A DNA stretch of 64,000 nucleotides. Source: Anniella stebbinsi. Taxonomy: Eukaryota > Chordata > Lepidosauria > Squamata > Anniellidae. The stretch is taken from positions 70,114,763 to 70,178,762 of the forward strand of contig JARDYH010000007.1 of the NCBI GenBank assembly GCA_029215795.1, read 5' to 3'. How positions within the stretch are numbered: the first letter of the stretch is position 1; each line of letters starts with the position of its first letter. Shown here in pieces: positions 437-41,230 of the stretch. The position numbers were made by a program, and so were the translations under genes. The notes under the pieces are model-generated. The model had not been told where the DNA came from. It saw nothing but the letters and a program-made list of their open reading frames with translations, and made no database searches.

Positions 437-3220
437 GTGAGTAACACATTGCAAGCTCACACCCCCAGATTCCTGGGTTCTACTAGGAATGCCACGTAAT
501 AACTAGAGCAGGAAAATGATGAGGAACCAGAACTCCTGGTTTCTATCCCCAATTAAGGGAGAGGATGTGTCTGAAGGCTTCCTATTAGCTATTTCAAACT
601 GTAAACTGAAGTGTAGTGTGGGTTGAATGTTTATGTTTGACTCCCAGCCTTCTCCCTCGCTCAGGTGCCCGTTGTCAGAAGAAGAGGACTTCTACCCAGA
701 CCATAACCACACCTGCATTATATGAGAATCTTCCCCCGTCTGGACAGGTAAGGCCTTAGGTTGGCTATGGAAGTTGTTTCCACTGATGAATAATATTTAA
801 AACTGATTTTCAGCATGTATACCAAGCACGGTGCTTTTAAGAGCAACAAATGGGTGAACGGTCCCTGCCCCAGAGAACTTACAATCAGTGGCACAAGACG
901 AGGGCTAGGGATTAAAAACTGAGTGAAGAGAATGGGAAAAGAGTTTGCAGTTCAGTGGTAGAGAACATGCTTTGCATGCAGAACGTCCAAGGTTCAACCT
1001 TCAAGGGAGGGCTAGGAAGGGATCCTGCCTGAAACCCTGGAGAAGCATGGCCTGTCAGTATTGACACTACTGGGCTAGATGGACCAAGGGACTCAATCAG
1101 GATAAGGAAGCTGCCTATGTGGTTATGAGAGGAGCGAGCAGTGCATTTCAAACTTTTAAGGCAGGGTTTTGTAACCTCCGGCCAAATCCAGTCCCACCCC
1201 TTCCAGATTTCCTCCACGTCTACCCAATGATCAGAGACTAGAGCTGCAGAAAAGCAGCCCTCTGCAAAAGCTGAACTGGGCATGCACATTGCCTGCTTAA
1301 TTATTAAGTTATGGATTATGCTAAGTTGTTTGTAATGGCTATTAGTCACATACCACAAAATGTTTGACTGAGGAGACATGGTCTAGAATTGAGCTGCGAC
1401 TTGTATACTTGCTGGGGAAATGTTCAGATTGGGAGGAATTACATCTGGTCCTGCCCATTTTGCTTTGGCCCCACCCACTCTGTCCTTGGCACCGCCCCTT
1501 GAGCCTTCAACCCCGCCCTCTGCTGTGGAAGTGTTTTAATGCTGTGCTTTAATGTGGTGTTTTAATGTTTTTAATATTGTATTTTAATATTGGGAACTGC
1601 TGAGAGATTTTACTATACTTGGCAGGATAGAAAGGCCACAAATGAAATAAGTAACTAATGTAATAAATGAATAAATAACGCAGCCCCCGAGACACATCCC
1701 AAATTCCTATTTGGCCCCTAGCCAAAAATGATTTGCCTCCTCCATGTTACAGTTTACTTTCCACATCATTTTGTCATCTAAGGAACTCCAATGCCTGGCA
1801 AAGGATTCTGGAGCATCTTTCAGGTGCACATTCAGCTCTCTGGCCAGCTTGTTGAAGCTCACACTGTGAACACAGCATGTGCCCTGGAACATGCGATACT
1901 TGTAGCATTTCCCTGCAGTTGCATAAGATTTAGAGGCAGATCAATAGCTCTGGAGAGCTTGGGAAAATTCTCCCCCTGACTGATCTTGATAGAGCCTCAG
2001 TTGAATGTCTATAAACCCCTTCCACATTCAACATCCACCATTTATCTCCTTCCCCATGCTTATTTTCCCCCTTTCTTTTGTATGGGGTTGTGTATGTGTT
2101 TGGCTTTGTTTACCATCTAGCCGAGCTTTCCCCAACCCAGTGCCCTCCCAAAGTTTGGGACATCAATTCCCATCAGCCCCCCACCAGCATAATCAATGGT
2201 CAGGAATACTGGGAGTAAGTAGTCCAAAATATGGAAAGGGCAGCAATTTGAGGAAGGAAGATCAACAGCTGCTGCTGCTGCTGCTACTGGGTAATGGCCA
2301 ACAAATTACATTCAGTATCCTTGTTTCTATTTAAAAATTTGGTCTAGATCAAGCCTGGAAATGCCTCTGCTGACAGCAACATATACCAGGTAAGCAAAGG
2401 CCCATCATGCTTCCCCCTTCTCTCAGAAAGGGCGTCTGATCTGACTCAGAGGAAGCCAGGAATGAAAATCCTCCCAGTGTGTGTTCCAGGGACAACAGAG
2501 CTCCTGTATCTTTGAGTTCAGAGATGGGGAGATTTCAGCAGGTGCGGATTTTCTCCACACCCCTGTGGCACAAGCTGCACCTGCTGGAATTCCCTCCTCT
2601 ACACACCACTACAAAGGTACAAGAGCTCTGTCCTTTTTTATATCTGGGGCGCTTCCAGATGGAGGGCTCCTAGTGCTACCAATCAAAAGGCACTGCAGAG
2701 CTATTCCATCTTTTCCTCCTTATTGGGTTTTTTTTCCCCCTAGTTAGAACAAAATCAGAAGACGCAGTGGGAAAACACGGGAAGGATGCAGATGGAGGAT
2801 ACCTTGAATGAGGCAGGGCACGGTCATAATAAAAGCCTTTGTCTGGAAGCCCCCATGATGACTTTGTACCCCAGGCTGTGATGCCAACATTCCATTGAAA
2901 GATAACACTCTCACCAGGGGCGTCAGTAGAGGGGGCGGGGGGTGACAAGCGCCCCTCCCCAAGGAGCTCAGTACCCCACTCACCCCCACCCCCATCGCTG
3001 GACTCCTGTCATGACTTGAAGGAAAGGCACTTTGCACAGATACAAGCACATTCATATATTATAATCTCTCTAGCTCTTCTACAGTTCAGCTGCAGCTCTT
3101 GAGCCAACAAAGGTTACGCATTTTGCAGTTGGAGTTTCCACTTGACATACCTTCATTTTTTTTTCTCTTCAGTCCCTGCAGCCCGGAAGCCAAGCTGTAT
3201 ATGAGGAGCTGAAGAGGTAG
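329..3220 (+). CDS. Copy 1: CEACAM-like ITAM receptor, 3' part only
   Basis: This is the membrane and cytoplasmic end of a CEACAM-like receptor. Exons are 329-436, 665-747, 2348-2389 and 3173-3220 (stop TAG). All junctions are GT-AG, with phases 1, 0 and 0 between them. The membrane exon encodes a short stalk (PPPSESG) and one hydrophobic span ending YFFLR. The tail is about 57 residues, begins RARCQKKRTS, and carries YENL, YQSL and YEEL. YQSL-x7-YEEL fits the ITAM spacing that SRC kinases phosphorylate and SYK/ZAP70 bind, so an activating role is inferred. YENL lies 17 residues before YQSL, outside ITAM spacing. The ligand-binding exons lie left of the window. It is the only copy here with an intact tyrosine tail. 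CEACAM assignment rests on homology of these exons and the 3'UTR to copies 4-7. Confidence 0.8.
665..747 (+). CDS. Copy 1 exon: cytoplasmic, basic start and YENL
   Basis: 83 nt, acceptor ctcgctcag, donor CAG|gtaagg, phase 1 to 0. It encodes the basic stretch after the membrane (RCQKKR) and ends ALYENLPPSGQ. A decayed form survives behind copies 2 and 3 and, broken, in copy 4. Confidence 0.8.
948..1127 (+). repeat. tRNA-derived SINE
   Basis: tRNA-like head (cagtggtagagaacatgctt, then the B-box-like ggttcaacc) followed by the body ending gggctagatggaccaaggg. The same family occurs at 20220-20310 (fragment) and 30093-30290. It lies in an intron of copy 1. Confidence 0.75.
1130..2340. other. Intron of copy 1, no gene seen
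   Basis: Intronic sequence with T/A-rich repeat-like DNA around 1530-1680 (gttttaatgt units, ending in aataaatgaataaataac) and a fragment near 2145-2220 of a dispersed reptilian repeat (caattcccatcagcccccca). No coding exon was recognised. Confidence 0.4.
2348..2389 (+). CDS. Copy 1 exon: 14-codon cytoplasmic exon
   Basis: 42 nt, acceptor tttggtctag, donor CAG|gtaagc, phase 0 to 0. It encodes IKPGNASADSNIYQ. The final Y-Q joins S-L of the next exon, so the YQSL motif is built across the splice junction. No counterpart was found in copies 4-7. Confidence 0.72.
3173..3220 (+). CDS. Copy 1 terminal exon, YEEL and stop
   Basis: 48 coding nt after the acceptor tttctcttcag, in phase 0. It encodes SLQPGSQAVYEELKR and TAG. 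The homologous terminal exons are at 34982 (copy 4), 43332 (5), 50984 (6) and 62243 (7). Confidence 0.82.
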   Translation, partial: SLQPGSQAVYEELKR

Positions 3221-7839: not shown

Positions 7840-8340
7840 CCCATCGCGGCCCCCTCCCAAGGGCTCTCCTCTCGCCGCCGAGCGCGGATTGCTGCTCTCT
7901 CTTCCAGCGGGCGTCTCCCGTCTCGTGGCTTGTCCGGGGAAGGACTCGCCTTCATCGGGCTGCGGCCGGCCACGCTCTTCCCGCAACCCCGTCACCGTCG
8001 CTGTCCCGTGGGAGGGGGGCACAGGAGCCAGGCGGGGAGAGCCGGCGGCCTGCTCGGAGGAAGCCCGGCCCACGAGGAGGGAGGAGGAGCCGCGCAGGGG
8101 CGGGGGCGATGGCTGTCAGTCCCAACCCGGCGCAGCTGAGGCTCCTAAGGGCGAGGAGTTACACCTGGGACCCAGGCGTCCGGCTGGAGCGAGCGCCCGA
8201 GACCGGTTGCGCCACGATGGGAGCTAGGCGGGAAGCGCAGCGACGGCGTCCGGCTTGCGGGGTGCCGGCATGGAGGAGCTCCTGGCAGGCAGCGCTCCTC
8301 GCAGGTGAGGGGGATCTGGGCCGCGACGTGGGCGGGAGTC
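7840..8340 (+). promoter_or_regulatory. CpG-island promoter and 5'UTR of copy 2
   Basis: GC- and CpG-rich sequence surrounding exon 1. Its segment gtcagtcccaacccggcgca recurs nearly unchanged at 19460 and 27850 upstream of the other exons of this type, so it is a duplicated promoter/5'UTR module. No TATA box is evident. Confidence 0.6.
8217..8304 (+). CDS. Copy 2 exon 1: signal peptide, CpG type
   Basis: 88 nt ending in phase 1 at GCAG|gtgagg. It starts at ATG in gccacgATGG and encodes an Arg-rich start followed by AWRSSWQAALLA. The frame matches exon 1 of copy 4, which is also 88 nt, and supports this ATG over the upstream one at 8109. Confidence 0.72.
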
Positions 8341-16100: not shown

Positions 16101-18663
16101 TCTGGGCCTGGTGATTTATTTGCTTTCAATTGGTCAATACGGTTGAGAACTTCATCTTTTGTCACCTGTTTGCCTCAGTTCCTCAGACTCCCTTCCAGTT
16201 CAAGCACAGGCATCTGTCCTATATCTTCTGCAATGAATACTGATGTGAGGAATTCATTCAACTTCTCTGCCTGTCCTCCTTTAGGACTTCCTTAACTCCA
16301 TTGTCATCCAATGGACCAATTGCTTCCCTAGCTGGTTTCCTGCTTCTGCTATATTTAAAAAATTCTTTATTACTGGCCTTGATATTGTTGGTGATACACT
16401 CTTCAAAATGTATTTTGCATCTCTTATTGTCTGCTTGCTTTTGTGCTCCCTTGTATTTTCCTCACTTGGGCAAGATTTTTATTTTTGGAAGGAAAGCCCT
16501 CTTTTCTATAATAGCTTCCTTGACACTGCTAGTTAACCATGCTGGTGACCTTTTGAGTAATCTCCATGCACTTTGAAGGGATTTAACCCTCTTGACTCCC
16601 CCTTTCAACTCTCTTTTCACCCGTTCCCACATTTTAGAGAAGTTTCCTCTTTTGAAATCAAATGTGACTGTGTTGGACTTCCTGGGCAGTTTTCCCACTT
16701 AAACGTATATTTAATCTGATAGCACTGTGGTCACTGTTATATGAATTCCCATCGTGTGAGTTCCCTTCCTGGTGCTGCTTTGAATATTCGCGGAAAAAGG
16801 AACTCCAATGGTTCTGCACTCTGACAGAAAGCCAGGTTTAGCTGTGTTTATCAAGATACTGGGTTTTGATGGAATGTATTTATTTATATTCTATTTAATT
16901 CATTTATTTAGCCACTCCAAATGCCTTTTGAGGATTTCATCTTTATATAATGAAATCCATTTATTTATTGTTATTATTATTATTATTATTATTATTAACT
17001 TCACTATTGTCATCATGGTCTATAATCTCTGTTGACTGCACCCATTTTGGAAGCGTGAGACACCTGTATGAACAAATTATTGTCTACTGATGCAGTGCCT
17101 GAAAGCCCTATTGGAAAATTAATCACTACTGTTGATAACTGAGTTGTTATTGCCTAGTTAGGCCTTTTACTTGAAGTGAATCTTTCTCCTTCTCCATACC
17201 TCAGCCTCCATCCTCAGTTCTTGCCTCCAGCTGACTCGAGCCCAGAGTGGGAGCCCAAAAGAAATCCCTGTCACACTGAAACCACTCGTTCCAATAAAAG
17301 GACAGGATCTGACCCTGATTCCAGGAGGAGACATGCAAAATATTGTTAGCTGCAGCTGGTACCGAGGGAAGACGACTGCACTACAAAAGCGGATCTTTAT
17401 CTATTACCTTCCTCCAAATACTCTAGGGCAGATAAATGGATTTGCTCACACTGGGCGGGAGACAGGACGCCCGGACTGCTCCCTTCACATCAGGGATTTA
17501 ACATCAGCTGACTCTGGAACCTATACAGTGACAAAAGACGGAGGTGTGACAGCAATAGGACATGCAAACATAAATGTCTCAGGTATGATTCACCCATTCT
17601 TCAGCCACTCTTATCCCAATATCCCTCCTAGAACAAAGATTGAAAAATGATGAATACAAAAGGATAATTGCATCTAGGACCCCCTCTACAAGAATTCGGT
17701 TTGATTCCTGGTTCTCCAATTATGCGCATCTTCTCGCAATCACTGTTACAATAATGACTGTACACAGGAGGCAGTTAAGCGCATAACTGGTGGCCCGACT
17801 GGTTGTTTGAAACACGCTTTAAAGTGGATGAAATGCGGAGAATCGCTTGTTTACATGGTCAAAATGCGCTTTAACGGCTGCGGAAAACTCGCTATTTAAC
17901 GCGCATTCAATAATGCACATAATCGGAGAGGAAACGCACCTCTACCCCCAATTTGCGCTCCGCTCTTGTAGAGGTAAAAAATTTAATGAGACTTGAAAGG
18001 GCTTTAAACCTTTCGTATAGAGGCACCCTAGGTGTGTGTATTGGTTTGCCAAGTCAGTTCATGAAAAACACATGAATTTCTTTGTTATCCTGGAGCTGAG
18101 ACTCAATTGGCAAAACTGACTATTTTCCTAGGTTTTCAATGCATGTTCAGGTGCAAGGAAAACAACCAGAAAAGGGCTATTGCTTTTGTGTCTGGCTTGT
18201 GGTTTTCCTGTGGGCAGTTGGTTGGCTGCCATGAGAACAGAATGCTGGACTAGATGGACCCTTGGTCTGATCCAGCACTCCTCATCATCTTATTTACGTC
18301 TAGATCAGGCCTGGTGCATTCACCTGGACCACTCTGTGGCTTCATCGGTGATCAGCTGTTTGGGTTTACTGGCAGACATGGTTCAAACCATGACTTTTAT
18401 ATCTGTGTTGTCATTTTTTTAACAAAGAAAAAACAATACTCGCCTTCAGCCAGAAGGGTGGCAAACTAGATTAATGGCAGTCTTTATAGGCAGCATCATG
18501 AAGTTGCTAAAAAATATGTTTTCCTATTTCAGAATCTATTCCAGATCCTATTCCAGGTCCTACTTCACCAGGAACAACAAACACTTCTTTGATCCTCACT
18601 GCATCCTTGGCTATGATATTGCTGTTACCTGGAATGCTGCTATGCCTGGCTTTTTCTCTCTGA
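8217..18663 (+). CDS. Copy 2: CEACAM-like, GPI-anchor type
   Basis: Three exons (8217-8304, 17205-17582, 18533-18663) join in phase 1 into an open frame of 198 residues. Exon 1 gives MGARREAQRRRPACG…WQAALLA. Exon 2 completes the signal (ASILSSC…TRAQ, mature start probably Q) and one IgV-like domain with SCSWYRG, TGRET and DSGTYTV. The last exon gives a Pro/Thr stalk (PIPGPTSPGTTNTS), about 24 hydrophobic residues and TGA with no cytoplasmic residue. That is the layout of a GPI-attachment signal, as in mammalian CEA, so a GPI-linked surface adhesion or decoy protein is inferred. A tail-less membrane protein is the alternative. A poly(A) signal follows at 19135. Intron 1 is about 8.9 kb and full of repeats. 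Confidence 0.78.
8605..8919. mobile_element. hAT-type foldback MITE, family B
   Basis: Starts TAGGGTGACC and ends GGTCACCCTA, with long inverted arms and an 8-bp target duplication AGGCTGTA (8597-8604 and 8920-8927), diagnostic of hAT. Other copies: 11539-11855, 20855-21170, 41104-41959, 63165-63482. Confidence 0.85.
9421..9562. repeat. Foldback repeat with perfect palindrome
   Basis: At 9471-9514 two 20-base-scale arms of cccagcatgccccagccag face each other across a short loop. Outer arms (ttacaatcctacgcac and its approximate complement gcataggattgtgcc) extend the foldback. Confidence 0.7.
9857..9885. repeat. (AT)n microsatellite
   Basis: About 14 AT units. Confidence 0.9.
10000..11110 (+). 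repeat. Intron-1 block duplicated between copies 2 and 4
   Basis: Shares ordered similarity with 30860-31560 in intron 1 of copy 4, for example agctaacagctcctgaaact and aatatcaattacctggtcag. It contains a divergent tRNA-SINE near 10870-11000. This shows that intron 1 of copies 2 and 4 descends from one ancestor. Confidence 0.65.
11539..11855. mobile_element. hAT-type foldback MITE, family B
   Basis: Flanked by a perfect 8-bp duplication CTCTTGAG (11531-11538 and 11856-11863). Same termini and arms as the copy at 8605. Confidence 0.87.
11900..12610 (+). mobile_element. L2-type LINE 3' fragments
   Basis: Translations resembling the C-terminal end of L2-type reverse transcriptases are visible (QLHWLPVHLQ…FKVL near 12120, and LWNELP near 12335), followed by a T-rich 3' tail. 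Frames are broken. Confidence 0.6.
12770..13026 (+). mobile_element. CR1 LINE 3' end
   Basis: Contains the typical CR1 3' sequence (ctggacatcaggaaaaacat; ggattggactagatggcctt) and ends with the CR1 tail attctatgattc. Confidence 0.85.
13081..13116. repeat. (AT)n microsatellite
   Basis: About 17 AT units. Reading frames crossing it (IYIYIY) are artefacts. Confidence 0.9.
13117..13630. other. Intron 1 of copy 2, nothing recognised
   Basis: A purine-rich stretch (gtggcaggtggaaattgtgg and similar) forms several overlapping frames on both strands with low complexity. I see no gene. Confidence 0.4.
13636..14110 (-). mobile_element. CR1-type LINE 3' fragment
   Basis: Antisense copy of the LINE 3' region: ggatcagaccgaggggccat…, ccagcaactggtgcac…, ccatcaatcagcttcatggg. 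Confidence 0.82.
14530..14690. mobile_element. Harbinger-like MITE family A, left half
   Basis: Begins GGCTGCCTCTACAAG after aataaa. The internal half matches 21665-21820 closely, then gives way to a GC-rich hairpin at about 14690, so it is truncated or a chimaera. Confidence 0.7.
14732..14916. repeat. GC-rich long hairpin
   Basis: Two arms of about 92 bases (14732-14823 and 14825-14916) are inverted copies with roughly nine differences by eye. They meet at TGATGTCATCA. The sequence is very CpG-rich and sits between a family A half element and a family C element. Confidence 0.8.
14930..15307. mobile_element. hAT-type MITE family C, right part
   Basis: Shares with 47783-48284 the signature blocks atggcggccaatccaaaaat-type and tgcattgcaatgcaag inverted segments, and ends gtgcacacccct. 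The left terminus is not present. Confidence 0.6.
15510..16720 (-). mobile_element. CR1/L2-type LINE ORF2 fragment
   Basis: Antisense pieces of reverse transcriptase are readable: NKSPGPDGIHPRVLKEL and EDWKMANVTPIFKK (about 15960-16130), HGIRGEVLLWVGNWLKTRKQ and SGVPQGSVLG (about 15540-15690), and SPAWLTSSVKEAI (about 16500-16560). Frameshifts separate them, so it is inactive. It lies in intron 1 of copy 2. Confidence 0.85.
16970..16996. repeat. (ATT)n microsatellite
   Basis: Nine or so ATT units in intron 1 of copy 2, at a position that matches the related introns of copies 5 and 7. Confidence 0.85.
17205..17582 (+). CDS. Copy 2 exon 2: end of signal and IgV-like N domain
   Basis: 378 nt, acceptor catacctcag, donor TCAG|gtatga, phase 1 to 1, fully open. 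Motifs in order: LTRAQ (signal end), LTLIPGG (B strand without Cys), VSCSWYRG (C strand), IFIYYLPP, HTGRET, PDCSLHI (E strand), SADSGTYTV (F strand without Cys), NINVS. Confidence 0.88.
17677..18027. mobile_element. Harbinger-like MITE, family A
   Basis: Inverted relative to the other copies, flanked by CTA at 17674-17676 and 18028-18030. It is inserted in the intron between IgV and membrane exons of copy 2 and absent at the matching place in copy 3. Confidence 0.82.
18170..18300 (+). mobile_element. CR1-type LINE tail
   Basis: Contains ggctgccatgagaacagaat and ctggactagatggacccttg. The same insertion is present in copy 3 near 26500-26590, so it predates the duplication of copies 2 and 3. 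Confidence 0.75.
18533..18663 (+). CDS. Copy 2 last exon: GPI-type C-terminus
   Basis: 131 nt after the acceptor cctatttcag, in phase 1. It encodes ESIPDPIPGPTSPGTTNTS, then LILTASLAMILLLPG and MLLCLAFSL, then TGA. The bases after the stop (gtaagacattgg) align with the donor side of copy 1 (gtaacacattgc), but the donor GT is CT here. Confidence 0.8.
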
Positions 18664-19134
18664 GTAAGACATTGGAAGCTAATAGCCCCTGACTCTTGGG
18701 TTCTGCAATCAACTGCAGGGCACAAATGGTGACTGACTACTAGATAGAACAGGAAAAGGATGGGGAACCAGGACTCATGGTTTCTCATCCGGATGAAGGA
18801 AGGAGATTGTGTCTTAAGACTTCCACTTACCTGTTGAATTGGCTTTTGCTTCCATTTGCTTTTATTACCTAGAACAGGCCCTGAAGTTACCTCCTGCTTT
18901 GTTAATATAAAGACTGCCTCATTTCTTTCTGTGATCCATAGGCATAATGAGCCCATGTGCCCCACCAACACCTGCCTTTTAAGCATCTTGCTCGCAGAAG
19001 AGATCTGGGGATCTCAAAAGTTTGCACATTTATTTAATGTGGTATTTTGGCTGCCCTAAGGAAAGTATTACTGAAACATAGATTTTGGACGATTTCAAAC
19101 TGTAAAACTGATGCTACCTGATTTGTGCTATGGA

Positions 19135-19140
19135 AATAAA
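19135..19140 (+). terminator. Poly(A) signal of copy 2
   Basis: AATAAA followed by a GT-rich stretch (tggtgtgctttgaatgtt). The 3'UTR is then about 0.5 kb. An identical arrangement follows copy 3. Confidence 0.7.
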
Positions 19141-19213
19141 ACACCCGTTTAAAACAGAAGCATGGTGTGCTTTGAATGTTAATGCTAGAGCCCCAGTCTT
19201 CTTCCTCACTTAG

Positions 19214-19250
19214 GGACCCATCATCAGGACAGGACTTCTAGCCAGACGTT
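19214..19250 (+). pseudogene. Relic of the cytoplasmic exon behind copy 2
   Basis: The preceding polypyrimidine tract and AG (tcttcctcacttag) and the bases after it (cagga…ggacttcta-ccaga) align with the cytoplasmic exon of copy 1 at 665. An in-frame TAG is created in the middle. It lies beyond the poly(A) signal, so it is not expected in the mRNA. Confidence 0.65.
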
Positions 19251-19299
19251 GAGTTTCTATTCAGTGTTGATGCCATACAGGGTTTTGAGGAATCCCTGG

Positions 19300-19660
19300 T
19301 CTCTGGCCTGTATTCCGTCTCAACCAGGCAGCGCCGCCCTCTTTCTCCAGCCAGGCGCCGCCACTATCCCGCCGGGAGGTGGGGGAAGCCAGTGGCCTGC
19401 TTGGAGGAAGCCCGGCCCACGAGGAGGGAGGAGCGGGCCGAGGAAGGTGGCAGGGTCCGTCAGTCCCAGCCCGACACAGCGAAGGCTTCTTCGGGTGAGG
19501 AAGTACACCTCGGACCCTGGCATTCAGCTGAAGGGACCAGGTGAGCCGGCTGCGCCACAATGGGGACAGGGCAGCCGGCCGGCATGGAGGGGCTCTTGGC
19601 AGGCAGCACTCCTCGCAGGTGAGGGGATCGGGGCCGCGACGTGGGTGGGAGTCGGCAGCT
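19300..19660 (+). promoter_or_regulatory. CpG-island module between copies 2 and 3
   Basis: Paralogue of the CpG-rich exon 1 modules of copies 2 and 4, including the 5'UTR segment agtcccagcccgacacagcg and the intron start gtgaggggatcggggccgcg. Confidence 0.5.
19560..19618 (+). pseudogene. Frameshifted CpG-type exon 1
   Basis: Matches the 88-nt exon 1 of copies 2 and 4 but is 59 nt long. The 29-nt deletion puts the ATG out of frame with AWRGSWQAALLA. The donor GCAG|gtgagg survives. If spliced to copy 3's IgV exon it could not supply the signal peptide. Confidence 0.65.
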
Positions 19661-20413
19661 GGTGTATTTCTGTACAGCTTGGCTGATCGCCCTGAAATGC
19701 CTGTGTGGAGTGGCGGGCTAGGCATAAACAGGAGGCCACCTCGGGGAAACTTTGCCTTTTGGGGTGGGTTGCCATATTCTGAATCCACAAAACCGGGAAA
19801 ACAAAATTTTAAGGGGGGGGGCTAGAATGTTTTTTTATTATTTTGGGGGGGGGGGATGATTTAATTTTTTTTAAATTTCATTTCTAGTGCGATAGGCAGC
19901 ATCCAATTAACAGCATCCTGATGTGCAGCTGTTAATAGGCGAGCAGGTGTAGGACCTATTGGCTAGTGGTGGGCAGACTAATATTAATTTTAATACAGTA
20001 ATATGAATAAATTGTTTAATATTAAGCCATTGCTACTACTACTGCAGAAGTATAGGGAGAGGAATGCAAAAGGGACGAAGTAAAAGTATGCAGCAGATGG
20101 TCTTTGCAGAAGGGATGGAAGGGAGGATGTAGGAGTAGCTGGGAAAACTGACCCAAGGTGCCTTGCTGCCTGAGACAAGCAGCACCCAAGGCAAACGCTT
20201 TCAATAGGCTTGCCTACAACCCTGGAGAGGTGCTGCCAGTCAGTGTCACCAGTAATGGGCTAGATGGACCAAGCGCCTGACTCAGTATGTGTTCGCTTCC
20301 TATGTTATGCATTCTTACCAGGGAGCATATCCCATTGAACACAATGGGATTTACTTCTGCGTAGACCTATCTACAATTGCTCTGCATATCCGTTTCACCT
20401 AACCACCATCTCG

Positions 20414-20417
<4 letters not shown>

Positions 20418-20472
<55 letters not shown>

Positions 20473-20475
20473 ACC
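20418..20475. repeat. (CT)n(CA)n compound microsatellite
   Basis: About 15 CT units followed directly by about 13 CA units. Long frames on the minus strand across 20367-20853 arise from this and the adjacent purine-rich stretch. Confidence 0.9.
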
Positions 20476-20854
20476 CCTATGTCTGCTTTGGAGCGGGGTG
20501 GGGGTTGGTTGAGTTGGGCAATGAAGAAAAATGAAAGGAAAGAAGGAGGAGAAGCAAGAGGGATAAAGAGGAGGAGGAAGAAACCAAAAGGACAGGAAAA
20601 TGTAGGAGAAAAAGAGCGAGCAGGGAAACAAAGAAGTAAATAATCCGAGAGCAACCGGAAAGGAAGGGGGGTGAGGAAAGCCCCTGCTGAAAAAGCAGAC
20701 AGAGAGAAACAAAAAAAGTGAAAAGGAAGGCAGGCAAAACAAAGGTTGTCTACTGCACCAACATGTATCAGCCAGGTCGCCTTCTCTGCCAATTACCTTG
20801 GCCTCAGTCAGGCTCAGGGGAGTGTAAACTGAGCCTGTTGTCCCTCTCAGCAAC

Positions 20855-21170
20855 TAGGGTGACCAGACAAAATCCAGGTCAGGGCTCATGTAGCTTTAAC
20901 AGTTGTAGAGAAAAGGGAATTTCAGCCAGTGTCGTTTGTGTGCAATTAGTTCCTGGTGAAATTCCCTCTTCATCACAACAGTTAAAGTTGCAGGGGCCCT
21001 GCCTTCTTTTGTATATGGTCACTCTAGTCTAGTGCCTGCACCTTTAACTGTTGTGAGGAAGAGGGAATTTCACCAGGAACTAATTGCATACAAATGACAC
21101 TGGCTGAAATTCCCTTTTCTCTACAACTGTTAAAGTTACATGAGCCCTGACCTGGATTTTATCTGGTCAG
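20855..21170. mobile_element. hAT-type foldback MITE, family B
   Basis: Flanked by CTCAGCAA and CTCAGCAC (8 bp, one difference). It has inverted arms with aactttaacagttgtagaga-type sequence at both ends. Confidence 0.82.
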
Positions 21171-21664
21171 CCTACTCAGCACACACGTTCTGCCAAGGCG
21201 GGCTCTTCCCCGCGCTCTTCCCCCATCTCCGCTTTCCCTTGTTCCTTCTCTTACACCGGGCCACCCCCGGTTTCGCCCTGGTTGCGTTTACTGGCGGCGG
21301 CGGCGGCTGCTGCTGCCCAGCCACAGTCGCTTTTTGCCGTGCTTTTCAAGTCTCGCGGGAATCCGGGATTCCTGCACAGCCGGGCGGGACTCATTGAACT
21401 CAATGGGAAATCGGGACATTCCCGGTTTTCCGGGATGTATGGCAACGCCCGTAGCCAGCCTAAAACTTCTGTGGGAAGGGGGCTGCTCCAAAAATGTAGG
21501 GAGGGCAGTTCATCTGCTTTGCAGGCCTTTTAAAGATAGAAATGCAAACTGATTTGTAATTATTCTTTTGGGGGGGGCACCCCTGGCTACCGCCCGTTCG
21601 CCTCCCTTTGGTCCGCGTTGGAGTTTATTTCTCCCATCATCTCTGTTAACATACTGCAGAGAAA

Positions 21665-22019
21665 GGCTGCCTCTACAAGAGAGGTTTAAAGCTCTTTCAA
21701 GGCGCTTAAAAAAATTTACCTCTACAAGAACGGAGCGCAAATCGGGCGTAGAGGCGCGTTATCTCTCCGATTATGTGCATTATCGAATGCGCGTTAAATC
21801 GCGAGTTTTATTTTGCTCCGGCCGTTAAAGCGCATTTTGACTATGTGAACAAGCGCTTATGTGCATTAACTACTTGTAAAGCGCATTTTGGTCATCCGTT
21901 AATGCGCTTCGCCGCCTCTCGACGCCTCTCGTGCAGAGGGATTAGGTGTAAATGCGCTTCTGCGATTATGCGCATAATCGTCTAACCGGGCGCAAAAGCG
22001 AATCCTTGTAGAGGGGACC
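21665..22019. mobile_element. Harbinger-like MITE, family A
   Basis: Flanked by AAA (21662-21664 and 22020-22022). The paralogous spacer behind exon 1 of copy 4 near 28400 shows the empty site (gcagagaaagaggctc), which fixes both ends of the element. Confidence 0.88.
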
Positions 22020-23385
22020 AAAGAGGCTCCGGTTCCAGCGGTGGCCTAACGGGCTACAAGCATTAAGATCCCCAAACTTACTATAGCCTCTGCTTCGATG
22101 GCTTTTTTAGGCAAAACCACATTGCGTGGTAATGGTCCCAGAATAGGGGCCATTGACCATCCTTTGGTCTGTATCACTCTTGTAGATTGGAATATCTCAG
22201 TTCCCCTGATGAAAAAGAGAGAGAGAGAGACTAACTCACACTTTTTGCAAGCCTTTGAGCTCCATCAGACGAGCATTTTCGTTTTCTTGCATGCTCATTA
22301 CTGGATACCATGTATTTTTGCAGGTCTCTTTCCCAACGTCGTCTGCCCCCCCCCCCATGTGCCTCCCGCCCCTTCAAGCCTTCTTTGCGCCACAAAAAAA
22401 CACCCCAGTAAGTCCAATTTATTTTAAAAATGGAAGTTACCGCTATACCTCCTGCTGTGTCCAGGAAAAGGAGCGGGATCCAAACAGCTCACTGAATGGG
22501 CCAGGGGCACCTTGCTTACTTTCGCTTTCAAAAGAGGAAGGAGGGACAGACGATTAGGTGGAGAAGCGACAGTACGCAATCGCAATTTTCCCCTGTGTGA
22601 TGACACCCTTTGACTATCGACTGTGAGTCTAGCTTTCGGGGCAAGGGATTTTGTGGCCAGCCCTACCATTAGGCAAAGTGAAGTGACCAAATTATGCAGC
22701 TGATCTGGGAGGTCCCGAAAAGGCAGGAAATCTTTACTGCTTTTAATTATATATATATATATTTGCTGCAGGATTGCAGGGGTTGGGGGCAAAGGTTTGT
22801 GGCATTTGCTGTTTCAAATGCCAAAATAACTTGGCTGATATTGGCCAGGTTCACACAGCCGCAGAAGGAAAATAAACGACGGCGGCTTATTTCCCCTCCC
22901 CATGCATGCCAGTCCCAAGCCACCTAATTAGCAGAACTACCTTTGTCAGGCGCGAGTTGTTGTGAGTGGGTGGGTGGGGTAATTTACAAACCATTCTGAA
23001 AACCATGGCTTGTTCTATGGCTTCAGGGTGGTTTATAACACACACACACACCCCAGCCGCCCATCCTCACCAGATTTGGACATCATGACAGCCCCACACC
23101 CTGCGAGGGTGACTATGCTGATTTGGTGGCTTTCAGCCAGCATGCATGGGGAAGGAAAATAAGTCACCATGATCATGCAAACCCAGCTTCCAAGAGTGTC
23201 CACTGCTAATCCATCATTTGGGTATTGTGTACCTTGATTTGGTGAGGGCGGCGGAGGGGGGGGACATTTGATGCTCTGCCTGGCCGCAAAATGTCTTGGG
23301 ACAGCTTAATACCTGCCACTGCCAATGTGTCTGTTATTGGACTGAAAATATTCTAACGCTGGAAGCAGGAAGCACTCTGAAGGAA
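22020..23385. other. Spacer shared with the region after exon 1 of copy 4
   Basis: Parallels 28400-29760 (for example ggcaaaggtttgtggcattt and ctgttattggactgaaaata), with small insertions and deletions. No coding sequence seen. It ends near 23385, where the homology switches to the upstream region of copies 5-7. Confidence 0.6.
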
Positions 23386-23858
23386 AGTGAAGGACACATC
23401 CAAGAGGTTCTTGTCAGCTGGCCCCTGCTGGCCTTGGAAGGCACCCAACTATGCCTACCCTTAAAAGCTGCCCTGCTCATCTTGGCTTTCCTTGAGACAC
23501 CTCCTGCCACCTTAAAAAAAACCCTTCCAGGGACCCTTGGAGAATGTCAACATTTACCCATTGGCCTGTCCCAGGGAAATTTCTGTGTGTGACGTGTGTC
23601 CTCCCACCTCTCACCATGGCTCGGATTCCACTTTATGACATCTTCCCATCACCTGGGAGCTCAGTTCTAAGGGCGGAGTCAACAGAGATCCAACCAGGGG
23701 GAGAGTGGTGGGTGGTGAGAGAACAGACTCAGTTGGGCCTCCTCCAGGCACTTGTGACCGAGGAAAGAAGCCAAGCATCCTGCTGGACATAAAAATAATC
23801 CCACCTCAACCACCGTGAAACTGCCACCTACTACCTCTCATTGGGAAAGAGGAGCATC
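23385..23858 (+). promoter_or_regulatory. Upstream region of copy 3 exon 1
   Basis: Conserved with 36545-37033, 46240-46876 and 56620-56991 upstream of copies 5-7, e.g. cactttatgacatcttccca. It is AT/CA-rich rather than CpG-rich. A TATA-like acataaaaata lies about 70 bases before the ATG in this copy only. Confidence 0.5.
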
Positions 23859-23928
23859 ATGTGGGTCCTGCACAGGAATCGGGGCCTCCCTGGGTGTGGC
23901 AGTTTCTGGCAGGAGCTGCTCCTAGCAG
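23859..23928 (+). CDS. Copy 3 exon 1: signal peptide, MWVLHRN type
   Basis: 70 nt, ATG in gcatcATGtg, donor GCAG|gtgaga, phase 1. The hydrophobic core is weaker than in copy 5 because of GSFWQELLLA (Glu in place of Ala). Confidence 0.8.
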
Positions 23929-26915
23929 GTGAGACATTGTGGTCTTGTACAGAGGTGAGGGGCGGAGAAACATGGTGTCCTGTCACCACTGTTGATGTAC
24001 GATGCAGCTGTCGGTCTAGTCTGCTTCAGTATATGAAATTGATGAGTGTGTTTTGCTCTTTGCCCCAGGCTACAAAATGTCTTCCTCTGCAGCAGAGTTA
24101 AATCAAAGCACCAGAGCTTCCCAAAGGCATCTGGCTGGCCACTGTCATTTTGGAAGTGTGAGATACCTGTATGGACAAATTGTTTTCTGCTGATGCAGTG
24201 CCTGAAAGCCCTATTGGAAAATTAATCACTACTGTTGATAACTGAGTTGTTATTGCCTAGTTAGGCCTTTTACTTGAAGATCATCTTTCTCATCCATACC
24301 ACAGCCTCCATCCTCAGTTCTTGCCTCCAGCTGACTCGAGCCCAGAGTGGGAGCCCAAAAGGAATCCCTGTCACACTGAAATCACTTGTTCCAATAAAAG
24401 GACAGAATTGGACCCTGATTCCAGGAGGAGACATGAAAAAAATTGTTAGCTGCAGCTGGTACCGAGGGAAGACGACTGCACAACAAAAGCGGATTTTTAT
24501 CTATTACCTTCCTCCAAATACTCTAGGGCAAGTTAATGGAGCTGCCTACACTGGGCGGGAGACAGGGGCCATGAACTGCTCCCTTCACATCAGGAATTTA
24601 ACATCAGGTGACTCTGGAACCTATACAGTGATAAAAGACGGAGCTGTGATGGCAATAGGACATGCAAACATAACTGTCTCAGGTATGATTCACCCATTCT
24701 TCAGCCACTCTTATCCCAATATCCTGTCACCTCTGATGAGACCATGGATAGATGAATCTCCATTTCTAATGTTTTCCCTTCTTTAAGTTCATTTCATCCC
24801 ATTCATGTTCATATCAAAATGTGTACATACTCTTGTGTGCATTTACCCTAATATAGGCTTTTTGGCATACTTTCCCCCCCTCCACTCCCATTAGACATAT
24901 TTTTGCAAGCAATTTTCCTTAATATAAGGTGTTTTGCCATTATGTATTTCACAGTATGCACAAATTTGTATGGATTTTTGTTTGAGGGAACTACAAGTAT
25001 AATTGTGTTTAGGTTTGCCAAGTGCAGGGCTATGCGGGGGGGCAGTGGGGCCAGTTGGCCTGGGGCTCATGATTTTGAGGGGGCACTTCGACGAGGAGAT
25101 TCCCCCCCAGCTTACTCTACTGCTTCAGTAGGGTAAGCGGCCCGTCAAGAAACGAGGAGCCCGCCTTGCAGAAACAGCGCAGAAGCCATCCATCATGAAC
25201 ACCACGGTCAGACTACAGGCTCCAGAGGGCCATGCCGCATGTGGGGTGGGGATATATGTGCCTTGAGGTGTTGTAGAACAGGTTTAGTATGAAGGTGTTA
25301 TGTAAAACAGACATGTTGGTGGGCACGCCCCTTGGGGCAGCCATTTTGTCCTCCTGTTTTGAAATGCGGGTGGCACACACTTCCCATCTGACCTGGGCAT
25401 ATTACCAGTTCTGCACGGCCCTGGCCAAGTGGGGTTCATGAGAAACACATGAATTTCTCTACCATCCTGGAGCTGAGACTCAATTGGCGAAACTGACAAT
25501 TTTCCTAGGTTTTCAATGCATGTTCAGGTGCAACTAGGAATACTGTTTCATGTTAATGACACTGTAGGACAGAATCAGAAGCTGGTAGTGATTTTAGCTG
25601 AACTAATCTGCAGGGAAGAGATAGGATTTTGTAACTATAGTGTAAGGTGCACGCTTACTGGAGCTATTCCATCATTCTGCATTTTGGGATCCATTTGGCT
25701 GAAGCTGTCCCCAGATTCACTGGTGAAAAGAAGCTGATTCAACCATGCAGAGAATGAAAGTCATTACGGAGTCTGTATAAAATGATTCTTTCCTTTGTGG
25801 GAATAACACCCAGGGACAAAAAGGCCTCTTTTCTCCTAGCTGAACCCCCTCAATAGCCATAAAAGTGCAAACAAGTGCATAAATAAAGGGGCATGTAATA
25901 TGCGGTATTCATAGATATTTATGGTTGCCACAGGAGGGGCTGCTTTCCAGCATTCTGGTCTCGTACTGAAGGAAGGAGAGATCAATTCTTTCCCAGGTTT
26001 CATGTTTGTGACATGCTGGGCTATCTTGTCTTGTTACCATGACTAGACTTCTCCAAGAGTGTCTTCATAGCAGACTCAACCATGTCTCAACCCAAGATAG
26101 ACTGGAGGGCCATAACACTACTTGGACTTCTGTACAGTGATAAGGAGGTGTGATGAGGAGAAGTGAAACTGAAGGGGAGCATTTCTGCACCAGTAATTCT
26201 TATCAGCAGCTGTTCTGGCCCAACATATATCAGCCAATGGGTAGGGTGGATCCCTGCAATTTGTTATGTGCTGATGTGGTTCTGCAATCCTGCGAAGCTG
26301 CAGATAATGTGCTTAGCTTATGATCCAGCAAAGAGGGAGGGTTGTTGCTAATTAAGCTGTCTTCGGCATATAACAAACTCTGCTTAGATACGCCTTAACC
26401 CCTATTATTAATGCATTAGTTTCGCAATGTGTGAATTGGTCCATCTTTACCAGGGAACATGACAGGGAGGGAGCTATTATATTTCTCTCTTGCTTGTAGG
26501 TTTCTCTCGGGCAGCTGGTTGGCCACCGTGAGAACAGAATGCTAGACTAGATGGACCCATGGTTTAATCCAGCACACCACTCATTACCTTATTTACCTCT
26601 AGATCAGGTTTGGTGCATTACTAGCAGACATGGTTCAAACCATGACTTTTTATATCTGTGTTGTCATTTAAAAAAAAAAAAGACAAAATTTCTCCCCTTC
26701 AGCCAGAGAGGTGACAAGCTAGACTAATGGCGGTCTTTATAGGCAACATCATGAAGTTCCTAAAAGTATGTTTTCCTATTTCAGAACATATTCCAGGACC
26801 TACTCCAGATCCTACTTCACCAGGAACAACAAACACTTCTTTGATCCTTACTGCATCCTTGGCTATGATACTGCTGTTACCTGGAATGCTACTATGCCTG
26901 GCTTTTACTCTCTGA
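23859..26915 (+). CDS. Copy 3: CEACAM-like, GPI-anchor type
   Basis: Three exons (23859-23928, 24305-24682, 26785-26915) join in phase 1 into 192 residues. The signal starts MWVLHRNRGLPGCG. The IgV-like domain has SCSWYRG, YTGRET, MNCSLHI and DSGTYTV, with possible N-glycosylation at NWT, NCS, NLT and NIT. The last exon has a Pro/Thr stalk, a hydrophobic stretch and TGA, like copy 2, so GPI anchoring is inferred. Intron 1 is only 376 bp, much shorter than the roughly 1.1-1.5 kb of copies 5-7. A frameshifted CpG-type exon 1 lies upstream at 19560, but this exon is intact and closest, so it is taken as the start. Confidence 0.8.
24305..24682 (+). CDS. Copy 3 exon 2: end of signal and IgV-like N domain
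   Basis: 378 nt, acceptor ataccacag, donor TCAG|gtatga, phase 1 to 1, open. It is the closest relative of copy 2's exon, sharing TLIPGGDM, SCSWYRGKTTA and the KDG…MAIGHANI end. Confidence 0.88.
25024..25422. mobile_element. hAT-type non-autonomous element in copy 3 intron
   Basis: Ends gcagggctatgc and gcacggccct are inverted (a CAGGGC…TGC-type hAT terminus). Flanks tgccaagt and ggccaagt form a 7-of-8 target duplication. Copy 2 has the uninterrupted site near 18050 (gccaagtcagttcatg). Confidence 0.75.
25430..26784. other. Copy 3 intron, CR1 tail only
   Basis: Unique intron sequence with the CR1 tail (26500-26590) that copy 2 shares. No extra Ig exon is visible. Confidence 0.5.
26785..26915 (+). 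CDS. Copy 3 last exon: GPI-type C-terminus
   Basis: 131 nt, acceptor cctatttcag, phase 1. It encodes EHIPGPTPDPTSPGTTNTS, the hydrophobic run LILTASLAMILLLPG…LCLAFTL and TGA, then gtaagacattgg where copy 1 has its donor. Confidence 0.8.
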
Positions 26916-27332
26916 GTAAGACATTGGAAGCTAACAGCCCCTGACTCTTGGGTTCTGCGATCAACTACAGGGCACAAATGGTGACTGACTACTAGCTAGA
27001 TCAGGAAAAAGATAGGGAACCAGGACTCATGGTTTCTCATCCGGATGAAGGAAGGAGATTGTGTCTCCAGACTTCCAATTACCTGTCAAATTGACTTTTG
27101 TTTCCATTTGCGTTTATTACCTAGAACCGGCCCTGAAGTTACCTCCTGCGTTGTTAATATAAAGACTGCCTCATTTCTCTCTGTGATCCACAGGGGAAAA
27201 ATGAGCCCACGTGCCCCACCAACACCTGCCTTTTAAGCATCTTGCTCGCAGAAGAGATCTGGGGACCTCAGGAACATGAATTTTGGACGGCTTCAGACTG
27301 TAACACTAATGTTCCCTGATTTGTGCTATGGA

Positions 27333-27338
27333 AATAAA
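27333..27338 (+). terminator. Poly(A) signal of copy 3
   Basis: AATAAA followed by gcatggtgtgctttgcatg, as in copy 2. Confidence 0.7.
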
Positions 27339-27411
27339 ACACCCGTTGAAAACAGAAGCATGGTGTGCTTTGCATGTTAATGCTAGAGCCCCGGTCTTCT
27401 TCCTCACTTAG

Positions 27412-27448
27412 GGACCCATCATCAGGACAGGACTTCTAGCCAGAGATT
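27412..27448 (+). pseudogene. Relic of the cytoplasmic exon behind copy 3
   Basis: Near-identical to the relic behind copy 2. The acceptor-like tcctcacttag is followed by sequence aligning with copy 1 exon 665, with an internal TAG. Confidence 0.65.
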
Positions 27449-27499
27449 GAATTTCTTCTCAGAGCTGATGCCCAACAGGGTTTTGAGGAATCCCTGGTC

Positions 27500-31100: not shown

Positions 31101-34100
31101 GTGAAGCAAACGGTGACTTGTATAAAAGTTCTCCAGGATTATGTAGTGGCGGGATACAGGAAATGCAAAAGGATTTCCCTGACACTCATCCCTATATAGA
31201 TGATCTATATAAGGATCTACAACTCTGTTTAGATATGGTCAGTAAGGTGAAATATATCTTGAAGAACAATAGTTAATTTGTATATTTTGGAAAAAGTGTC
31301 AGTGCCCAAGAAAGAGTGACATTTCTGAGACACACAATAAGACATGCAATGAGGAGGCTCCATAGCTCAATGGTAGAATGTATACTCCTACCTGGCATCT
31401 CCAGGTAGGAAAGGGCTGCTGCACGTTAGTGTTGAAAATAGAAGGATAGCTAGACCCTAATATCAATTGTCTGGTCAGGTACATAATGCTAATCTTCCTC
31501 CCTTGCAGAGGAGTAAACAACCACACATAATTTCAATTGACGATATCAAATCAGCACCATCCAGTTTTACTCCTCCAAGCCAAGTCTGCATGTGAGCCTT
31601 GGGACTGAAAACACTGGTCACCAAACCCATCCAGATCTACACCTTGTGTCAAATCATTATGAATGGGGATGGGGAAGCAGGAAATAACGCTATGAAAGAG
31701 GTATATAGAATGTGTAATGTCCCTCCAACAATTATCAGCTCACTTCTATCCTGCTATAAAGCAGAAGTACTACAGATCTAATCACCTAAAACGGATATTG
31801 CAGAGTTGGAAAAGGTGCCGGACAGGATGAGCGATGTGACCAAGGGGCAGGAAGCAATTCCTCATTAGGAAAAGGTTATAAACACTGGAACTATTTAGTT
31901 TAGGTGGGTCTTCTCCTTAAAGTGAAGGTTTGTCTCTTATTCTCCACACTGCAGCCTCCATCCTCAGTTCTTGCTTCCTGTTGAATAGAGCCCAGAGTGG
32001 GAGCCCAAAGGAAGTCTCTGTCACTTGGGTACCACAGAATCCAAAAGCAGGGCAGAATGTGACCCTAACGTCTGGAGGAAACTTGGAAAACATTGTCAGC
32101 TGCAACTGGTACCGGGCAAGGACAACTGATTTGGCAAAGCGGATCTTTGTCTATTTCCTACCTCCAAATGCTCTAGGGCAGGTTAATGGAGCTGCCTACA
32201 CTGGGCGGGAGACAGGGGCCCCGGACTGCTCCCTTCACATCAGGAATTTAACAACCGCTGACTCTGGAAACTATACAGTGACAAAAGAAGGAGGTGCAAT
32301 TGAGATAGGACATGCAAACATAGAGGTCTCAGGTATGATTCATGCAATCTTCAGTCATTCTCACTTCAGTCATGAGCTGTCGCCTCTCTTGAGACTAGCG
32401 ATGGCTAAACCCATCCATTCTGGTGTCACTCCATTTTTCCGTTTTCCCATCCTTAAGTTCATATCATCCTGTATCCACATCAGTTTGCGATTTTTATTTT
32501 ATTTTTTAAAAAACACACAAATCTCTGCATGAAAATCTGTATGTATTTTTGTACGCGAGTCTTCAAACTGTCAGATCCTTTTCAGGGTGCGTCTTCCTGC
32601 CAGTTTGCACCTGTGTGTTTCATGGAGGAGGAGGGAAGGAAGACCAAATGGGATAAGATACGCAGAGGTCAGAGATAGCCTAGAGAGACAACTATGCCTC
32701 AACATGCTGCTTCTGGAATATTATCAATGGGGGATCGTATAAGGGAAGTGAAAATATAGGCAGGAGGAGAAAAGAGTCACAATCCTTGCCCCAAAGGGTA
32801 TGGCAAGATTACCCGTCTTTGTCCCTCCGCTGACCCTCCTGCTCACTTGCGTACCTGGTGGCAGAAGCAGAATCTGGGAAACTGAGAGCCATTTCAGGTT
32901 CCCACAGTAACGCAGAGCTATGCTACACTGCAGGACTTTGTGACACTGCTTGACCTCATTTGGTCTCATGCAGAAAGAGGTTGGTGTGAAGTGGAGACCC
33001 TTCTTTCCCAGTCTTCTCATTTCTGACGCAGTGGGCTATCTTGTCTTCATGGCAGGCTCAGCTTGCACAGAACACGAAACAGTGGGGTTGAGCAGCAAAG
33101 CGGGTTGGTTGCAAGATAAGCGCTCCTCAGCACTTGACCAACTGCACAGATCCTCCTTACAGCCTCTTATGCATATTATGAACACAGGCTACGCTGTGGC
33201 GTCATTGCAGAGGAGAACATATAAGAATATAAGAAGAGTCATGCTGGATCAGCTAAGGGGCCATCTAGTCCAGCAGTCTGTTCACACAATAGCCAACCAG
33301 CTGCCTATGGGAAATCCACAAGTAGGACATGAGTGCAACAGCACCTTCCCATCCATAGTCCCCAGCAACTGGTGTGCATAGGCATTCTGCCTCTGATGCT
33401 AGAGATAGATAGCCACCAGCACAAGTAGCCATTGATAGCCTTCTCCAAGAATTTGTCTAACCCCCTTTTTAAAGCCATCCAAATTGGTGGCCATTGCTTC
33501 ACCTCATGAAAATGAATTCCATAGTTTAACTGCGCTGTGTAAAGAAGTTCTTCCTTTTCTCTGTCCTGAATCTCCCACCGATCAGCTTCATGGGATTGAC
33601 TTCATTGGGTTCTACTATGATGAGGAAGGGAGAAAAATGTCTCCCTATCCAATTTCTCCTTGCTATGCATAATTTTGTACACCTCTATCATGTCTTGCCT
33701 TACTCGCCTTTTCTCCAAGTTAAACAATCACAGCTCTTGTACCATCACTCTTAGGGGAGATACTCCAGTCCCTTGATCATTTTAGTCACCCACAGCTATT
33801 TGGGGTTCCTTCCAGAATGGGTTCAGACCATGTCCTTTAAATCTATGTGATAGATAGATAGATATAGATATAGATATATACTTTCTCCCCTTCATTCAGA
33901 AGGATGTCAAGCTAAATTAATGGTGGTCTTCTTGGCAGCATCTTGAAGCTCCTAAACTTATGCTTTCCTATTCCAGCTCAGACGGAAACAGACAACAACA
34001 TTCTTTGGATTGTTATTGGGTGCTTGGCTGGGACACTGCTGTTGATTGGAGCCCTGCTTTACTTCTTTCTACGTGAGTAACAAATTGGAAGCTAACAGTC

Positions 34101-40100: not shown

Positions 40101-41184
40101 TTCCCCAGCAACTGGTGTTTATAGGCTTCCTGCCTCTGATACTGGAGGTAGCCTATGGCCATTAGGACTAGTAACCATTGATTAGCCTTCGCCTTCAGGA
40201 ATTTGTCTAACCCCCTTTTAAAGCCATCCAAATTGGTGGCCTTCACTATGTCTTGTGGTAATGAATTCCACAGTTTAACTGTGTATTGTGTGAAGAAGAC
40301 CTTCCTTTCCTCTGTCCTGAATCTCCCACAAATCAACTTCATCGGATGTCTCCCGATTCTAGTATTATGACAAAGACGTCTCTCTGTCAACTTTCTCCAC
40401 ACGATGCATAATTTTGCACACCTCTGTCATGTCTCCCCTACTCGCCTTTTCTCCAGGCTAAGCAATCAGAGTTCTTTTGATTGTCACTCATACGGGACTT
40501 GCTCCAACCCCTTGATCATCTTAGTTGCCCTCTGCTATTTGAGGTTCTTCTCAGAAATGGTTCAGACTGTGTTCTTTTAAATATATATATATATATATAT
40601 ATATATACACTTTCTCCCCTTCATCTGAAAGTATGACAAGCTAGATTAATGGCAATCTTTATTGGTAGCATCATGAGGTTCCAAAAATATGCTTTCCTAT
40701 TCCAGGTCGGATGGCAACAGAAAACACCGTTCTTTGGCTCTTTCTTGGGTGCTTAGCTGTGACTGGAACCATGCTATATGTCTGGTTTTTCAGGCAAGGT
40801 AATAGTTTAAGTTATGTACAGCTCCCAACTGTGCATATACCAAGGTTTTTGCTCTCTGGGAGCAATACAGTAAGTTTTTGCAGACTATCTTTGGTGTCTG
40901 ACATTGTCTTCCTAATGCTCTGCTTAGAGTGGAATCTACAGTGATCCCACTTGTAGCATGTGCAAGGTTACATGTAATTAGCTGTTGGCCTCGCTTTAAT
41001 TAAATCTTAACCCTGAAACAGTCAGTTCCGCAAGGTCAGTGCAAAAGGGGCCATTGTGTGCAAGATCATTACTCCACAATTTCAACAGCCCAGCATTTAC
41101 AAGTAGGGTGACCAGATAAACTTCAGGTCAGGGCTCATGTAACTTTAACAGTTGTAGAGAAAAGGGAATTTCTGCCAGTATCAT

Positions 41185-41230
<46 letters not shown>

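Follow-up and report, generated by a model that had tools for sequence, protein, structure and literature searches.

We analysed a stretch of 64,000 nucleotides from Anniella stebbinsi (the window, C7:70114763-70178762) that contains seven copies of genes of the CEACAM family, of which copy 1 is partial. Judged from the sequence, copies 2 and 3 are a duplicated CEACAM that was formerly of the type with an immunoreceptor tyrosine-based activation motif (ITAM), has no signalling tail and has probably exchanged its end for a glycosylphosphatidylinositol (GPI) anchor.

The course of events that we propose is as follows. Copies 2 and 3 would be tandem duplicates of one gene, descended from an ITAM-tailed transmembrane receptor. 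Before the duplication, the membrane exon of their common ancestor lost its splice donor (G+1 to C), an insertion of four bases brought a TGA into frame, and a repetition of the acceptor converted intron into a possible Pro-rich stalk. The first tail exon has lost its own donor and decayed, and the third exon, which carries the end of the ITAM, is now missing. The predicted product consists of a leader, one immunoglobulin V-type (IgV) domain, a stalk and a charge-free hydrophobic end, which the GPI transamidase would most likely swap for a GPI anchor near the stretch GTTNTS. Such a protein could bind a ligand via its N domain without signalling, perhaps as a decoy or an adhesion protein.

Remodelling of the membrane exon and loss of the tail

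The exons and poly(A) signals of copies 1 to 5 described here all lie on the + strand, and a slash marks exon boundaries. The membrane exon of copy 2 (18533..18663) codes for a Pro/Thr stalk and a hydrophobic end and closes with TGA at 18661-18663; its counterpart in copy 3 (26785..26915) has the TGA at 26913-26915. Their translations are ESIPDPIPGPTSPGTTNTSLILTASLAMILLLPGMLLCLAFSL and EHIPGPTPDPTSPGTTNTSLILTASLAMILLLPGMLLCLAFTL, each followed by the stop. Where copy 1 reads CTCC/GTGAGTAACACATTG (CTCC/GTGAGTAAC), copies 2 and 3 have CTCT/CTGAGTAAG, read as CTCTCTGAGTAAGACATTG. In the alignment with copy 1, the G at donor position +1 is a C in both copies and the base preceding the donor has also changed; in copy 2 the lost donor (18660..18665) is CTGAGT, compared with GTGAGT in the paralogs. 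Four extra bases are found slightly upstream of it in both copies (their placement is approximate), and this insertion shifts the frame so that TGA comes directly behind the hydrophobic segment. A preliminary description of the locus had claimed both a GT to CT donor loss and a small length change that frames the TGA, and the alignment confirms the two.

Since all six other membrane exons that align at this position (those of copies 1 and 4 and of the paralogs g34, g57, g69 and g80) keep the GT, what copies 2 and 3 show is the derived state. A different donor serves copies 5-7, and CEACAM1 has its own. Identity between copies 2 and 3 is 92-93% in the two exons and in the 3' flank, and 82% in the intron that directly precedes the membrane exon. 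They share every change, which points to a single event that was later duplicated; for the same reason the two copies do not reveal in which order the mutations occurred. The preliminary description had expected visible intermediate steps, to be ordered by aligning the copies, and this part of its interpretation has to be given up. What stands of it is the kinship with ITAM-type exons, the donor loss, the in-frame TGA, the fossil tail exon and the loss of the ITAM.

The other end of the exon has been altered as well. The membrane exons of copies 2 and 3 start with cctatttcag/AATCTATTCCAG ATCCTATTCCAG GTCCTACTTCA, and it is the final CAG that aligns with the acceptor of the paralogs. In copy 2, positions 18533..18556 repeat the ancestral acceptor (tattccag) in two units of 12 bases that can now code for stalk, which makes three in-frame acceptors in all; the stalk part IPDPIP comes from these repeats and was formerly intron. 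As all three acceptors keep the frame, the stalk could vary by 0, 4 or 8 residues with the C-terminal end untouched. The Pro/Thr stalk noted earlier is present, and its Pro-rich part is former intron that may now be coding, depending on the acceptor used.

To place the exon among its relatives, we compared membrane exons across the window and 100 kb on either side (264 kb, on which all cluster counts are based). Trees were calculated from 12 membrane exons, a set without the genes whose N exons lie at index 14795 and on the minus strand, and from 17 of the 18 N exons, leaving aside the frame-broken one at index 66475. Among the matches listed, the exon of copy 2 with 27 flanking bases matches g57, g80, copy 4, g69 and copy 1 at E values from 2e-10 to 1.4e-6 and, weakly, g34 (E 0.03), while the membrane exon of CEACAM1 does not match it at E up to 1. 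In the exon tree, copies 2 and 3 form a branch of 0.27 near copy 1, g69 and g80, and CEACAM1 is distant. A first ITAM tail exon lies close behind copy 1, g69 and g80, a possible one ~9.6 kb beyond g34 and a decayed one behind copy 4; behind g57 none was found. The flanking intron and the first tail exon of copies 2 and 3 match copy 1. By these comparisons, the remodelled exon resembles ITAM-type exons and not the CEACAM1 exon of this genome.

Remains of the ITAM tail can still be recognised. A poly(A) signal AATAAA follows the membrane exon of copy 2 at 19135..19140 and that of copy 3 at 27333..27338, and behind it lies a fossil of the first cytoplasmic exon (19214..19282 and 27412..27480, 3' limits approximate). 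Both fossils have lost their own donor, with GG in place of GT (CAGGTAAGG to CAGGGTTTT in copy 2), and the likely counterpart of the first-tail-exon Tyr is Phe in copy 3. Aligned to exon 665-747 of copy 1, they give local scores of 31 (copy 2) and 29 (copy 3); the maxima among shuffled sequences are 24 and 22, and 0 of 500 shuffles reach either score, which bears out the earlier claim that a decayed cytoplasmic exon aligning with exon 665 follows each poly(A) signal. The match is weaker to the two other ITAM-tail genes g69 and g80, whose scores are reached by 42 and 6 of 500 shuffles for copy 2 and by 2 and 18 of 500 for copy 3.

Copies 4 and 5 are followed by the third tail exon (E 1e-13 and 5e-12); the same search did not find it behind copies 2 and 3, so that no ITAM can be made by the latter. 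The second tail exon, which has only 42 bases and makes for a weak test, matched none of the stretches behind copies 2-5 better than chance. We also considered a mobile insert as the carrier of the poly(A) signal of copy 2, as 18836-19151 has no counterpart in copy 1. This is not supported: copy 4 has an intron of similar length, which makes a deletion in copy 1 the likelier event.

Copy 1 represents the ancestral state. Its transmembrane exon (329..436, the 5' part of the gene being upstream of the window) has the intact donor CC/GTGAGT and is followed by three cytoplasmic exons at 665..747 (with the motif YENL), 2348..2389 (ending in NIYQ) and 3173..3220. The joined tail, LYFFLRARCQKKRTSTQTITTPALYENLPPSGQIKPGNASADSNIYQSLQPGSQAVYEELKR, contains the ITAM YQSL-x7-YEEL and an extra Tyr 21 residues upstream. 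A survey of reptile CEACAMs describes ITAM-type members with a further Tyr motif 17-21 residues upstream of the ITAM (PMC13278318; for this and all other papers cited, we refer to parts of the text). Three tail exons, YxxL-x6-12-YxxL and the upstream Tyr motif are all found in copy 1; copies 2 and 3 do not show this set, their first tail exon being a fossil, the third absent and the second not found.

A little way upstream of the window, at ~70104450-70113250 of C7, four near-identical tandem N exons precede the membrane exon and ITAM tail of copy 1; presumably they belong to one gene, that of copy 1. These four are 92.5-93.3% identical to the N exon of CEACAM1, compared with 81.1% for copy 2 and 79.5% for copy 3. 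The CEACAM1-matched receptor of this locus is therefore presumably the copy 1 gene, and the idea that copies 2 and 3 are CEACAM1-matched decoys was rejected on the same figures.

Lipid anchor, membrane segment or pseudogene

The new C-terminus is likely to act as a GPI signal, as far as its residues tell. In both copies the stop stands directly behind the hydrophobic stretch with no charged residue after it, as in GPI-type ends, and small residues are present at GTT/NTS with 26-29 residues behind them. We applied a home-made check of the rules for the anchor (omega) site, which scored both copies at 0.9 for TT[N]TS (tail of 26) and 0.48 for SP[G]TT (tail of 29). All seven transmembrane sequences (copies 1 and 4-7, with the tails of copies 5-7 inferred by joining exons, Varanus P0001 and Zootoca P0005) scored 0, and six of seven GPI proteins scored at least 0.6. 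On the Hessa scale the end of copies 2 and 3 has a score of -1.38 and is less hydrophobic than the segments of copy 7 (-1.84), copy 4 (-2.88) and copy 1 (-3.86).

Copy 2 can be assigned, by position, an intact leader exon of 88 nt in phase 1 (8217..8304), and its N (IgV) exon (17205..17582) is open. Copy 3 has an open N exon at 24305..24682 and, before it, a leader exon of the copy 5-7 type (23859..23928), in phase, which we take as the one used; an old-type leader further upstream (19560..19618) is broken: at 59 nt it falls 29 bases short of the 88 nt found in copies 2 and 4, and it is out of phase. Flanks included, the copy 5-7-type leader looks as though recombination had brought it to its place 376 bases ahead of the N exon. 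Each of the two copies has its leader, N exon, acceptor and membrane exon open and in phase. Four pairs of working paralogs diverge by 0.15-0.22 in the membrane exon and 0.29-0.33 in the flanking intron; between copies 2 and 3 and five paralogs the values are 0.31-0.36 and 0.25-0.33, which fits a rebuilding of the exon, or a relaxed constraint, on their branch.

Several observations weigh against this picture. As for the descent, the joining of copies 2 and 3 to the group of copy 1, g69 and g80 is weakly supported in the exon tree (0.58-0.66), and a 27-base piece of the CEACAM1 membrane exon matches g57 at E 2e-5 (among the matches listed), so that ITAM-type and CEACAM1 exons are not fully distinct types. 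As for the anchor, uPAR, which is a GPI protein, scored no more than 0.06 in the rule check, and the site rated best in copies 2 and 3, TA[S]LA (1.0), is inside the hydrophobic stretch and an unlikely site. There is almost no polar spacer behind NTS, and the end (-1.38) exceeds four human GPI signals (+0.41 to +7.28) in hydrophobicity and comes close to the membrane segment of CEACAM1 (-1.66). By the title of a paper of 2012, GPI signals need a marginal hydrophobicity. Furthermore, the N exons of copies 2 and 3 differ by 7 silent and 23 replacement changes, and the resulting ratio of replacement to silent rates (dN/dS) of 1.09 fits neutrality or diversification. None of the tests of coding constraint counts as significant: the lack of stops has P 0.28, that of indels P 0.14, and a hydrophobic core free of stops and of strongly polar residues P 0.01-0.25, according to which ancestor and how many changes are assumed.

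What else could copies 2 and 3 be? Given the hydrophobicity of their end, they might make single-pass transmembrane proteins without a cytoplasmic tail. This is what has been proposed for terrapin CEACAMs, where genes with mutated donors of the membrane exon are read as transmembrane proteins (PMC13278318), and there are parallels in the horse, whose CEACAMs with a stop in the membrane exon are predicted not to be GPI-linked (PMC5856374). On the other hand, a charged stop-transfer residue such as those in copy 4 (RNRN) and Varanus P0001 (RSHH) is lacking, small residues occupy plausible omega sites and the core contains a Pro-Gly pair, so we regard this explanation as rather unlikely. Another protein end could arise if the GTAAGA directly behind the stop (TGA/GTAAGA) were used as a donor, giving a differently ended protein, or if the membrane exon were skipped, giving a secreted one; in the horse, CEACAM41 is reported with this exon left out of all transcripts (PMC5856374). 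For either course we see very little chance. The TGA is upstream of GTAAGA, so splicing there would not change the protein, and the third tail exon is missing. The same GTAAGA in the paralogs g57 and g34 makes it probably ancestral and no new donor, and it was rejected as a cryptic rescue of the lost one.

Finally, copies 2 and 3 could be unexpressed or decaying pseudogenes, with open frames that survived by chance after a recent duplication. Frame-retention tests without significance and a dN/dS of about 1 would fit this, as would the broken old leader of copy 3 and the broken N exons of the same cluster (index 53791 and 66475). We consider it improbable in view of the open and in-phase exons of both copies and the in-phase replacement leader of copy 3. 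Moreover, in the hydrophobic part of the membrane exon copies 2 and 3 differ by 3 silent changes and 1 replacement, while nearly all of the 6 differences in the stalk are replacements (small numbers in both cases).

Relation to known GPI-anchored CEACAMs

The rebuilding of a CEACAM membrane exon into a GPI signal is known from mammals. In primate CEACAM5-8, the exon of a transmembrane CEACAM changed slightly in length and acquired a stop (PMC2832619), much as in the lizard; the primate exon is described as deriving from the type with an immunoreceptor tyrosine-based inhibitory motif (ITIM), whereas the lizard exon is ITAM-type and has lost the donor itself. Pig CEACAM60, for which release by phosphatidylinositol-specific phospholipase C was shown, also combines a stop in the membrane exon with a degenerate donor of the first tail exon (PMC13212111). 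It differs in that its stop is a single T-to-A change in an ITIM-type exon (explicitly not ITAM-type) of a gene with an N and an A domain; copies 2 and 3 have the donor loss, the 4-base insertion and one N domain. As the primate and pig exons are ITIM-type, the lizard case would have taken the other, ITAM route. The suggestion in the preliminary description of an independent parallel to mammals is thus reasonable, primates and pig being described from an ITIM-type exon (PMC2832619, PMC13212111), but convergence as such is already a known theme.

Outside mammals, the terrapin genes (Actinemys, Chrysemys) share with copies 2 and 3 the single N domain, the mutated donor of the membrane exon and a tail lost by read-through (PMC13278318). 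They are derived from CEACAM1, with N exons 96.2-99.2% like it, and are read as transmembrane, whereas copies 2 and 3 have N exons 79.5-81.1% like CEACAM1, an ITAM-type exon and a charge-free end. Xenopus Ceacams are single-IgV proteins predicted to be GPI-anchored, but they are conserved (dN/dS 0.18 and 0.2; PMC5112662), in contrast to the recent and fast-changing lizard copies (1.09). GPI forms in zebrafish are predictions, as cited in PMC13212111.

A study of 2014 reported the CEACAM GPI anchor in primates only (PMC4079198), and the text of the 2026 reptile survey, figures and supplementary files aside, mentions GPI twice, for primates and in the abbreviations (PMC13278318). We found no report of a GPI-anchored reptile CEACAM in the literature searched. 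Tentatively, copies 2 and 3 may be the first such CEACAM reported from a reptile and also the first to have arisen from a membrane exon of the ITAM type, in which an activating receptor became a non-signalling, lipid-anchored protein by remodelling of both exon ends, with the acceptor repeat giving a stalk of variable length. If the anchor is confirmed, the loss of signalling together with the gain of a lipid anchor arose in CEACAMs of primates (more than once), pigs and a lizard, from both inhibitory and activating gene types, which would suggest selection for a non-signalling surface form. Because the remodelled exon adjoins intact paralogs, the sequence changes required are easily testable one by one.

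Among 121 proteins, 12 passed a filter that required the final 16 residues to be hydrophobic and to carry no more than one charge. Three of these have no charge at all: the gecko CEACAM-like database proteins P0010 and P0015 (Paroedura picta), which share one end, and P0039 (Gekko kuhli). The ends read ITVWALAGVVLVGILI and GVVAGIAVGAAAGALLIGILF, and two gecko candidates score +1.56 and -0.77 on the Hessa scale. These proteins possibly hint at further GPI forms, or are mere annotation ends.

Other copies and layout of the cluster

Copies 4-7 also seem to be without an ITAM, by routes other than that of copies 2 and 3. Copy 4 (33977-34640) has kept the donor of its transmembrane exon (33977..34072) and, joined to the exon that starts at 34593, ends in a four-residue tail RNRN and a stop, so its ITAM was lost by nonsense. 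The transmembrane exons of copies 5 (40706..40798), 6 (50580-50684) and 7 (60507-60611) have another donor, CAAG/GTAATA. Judging by the phase of this donor, copies 5-7 (40706-43379, 50580-51031 and 60507-62290) would read the third tail exon out of frame. A first tail exon was not found behind copies 5-7, but the search was a weak one, as the decayed exons of copies 3 and 4 escaped it too. With the nonsense in copy 4 and the donor phase of copies 5-7, copy 1 is the only one in the window that is seen to have retained an ITAM.

The assignment to the CEACAM family is based on the IgV N domain of CEACAM type and on the position in a cluster that contains CEACAM1. The N domain matches the Pfam V-set (E 9.8e-10), and all 30 PDB sequences that it matches are CEACAM, CEA or biliary glycoprotein. 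Reptile proteins are the best database matches, most of the top matches being CEACAM-named, and the closest relatives are lizard CEACAMs from Varanus komodoensis and one protein of Elgaria multicarinata that covers 73% of copy 2 at 71% identity. There are 18 N exons across the 264 kb, with frame-broken ones at index 53791 and 66475 (among the matches listed). Downstream of the last exon of copy 3, an N exon follows after ~43 kb and, after ~86 kb, an exon with an ITIM and an immunoreceptor tyrosine-based switch motif (VQYSTL, TIYSEI); together with a membrane exon, we take them as CEACAM1, on the assumption that they form one gene.

The window also contains palindromic elements with ~140 bases per arm, at 8603-8942, 11536-11872, 20852-21191, 41744-41956 and 63162-63499. 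In two listed pairs the arms are 95 and 98% complementary, and the family is probably a mobile element.

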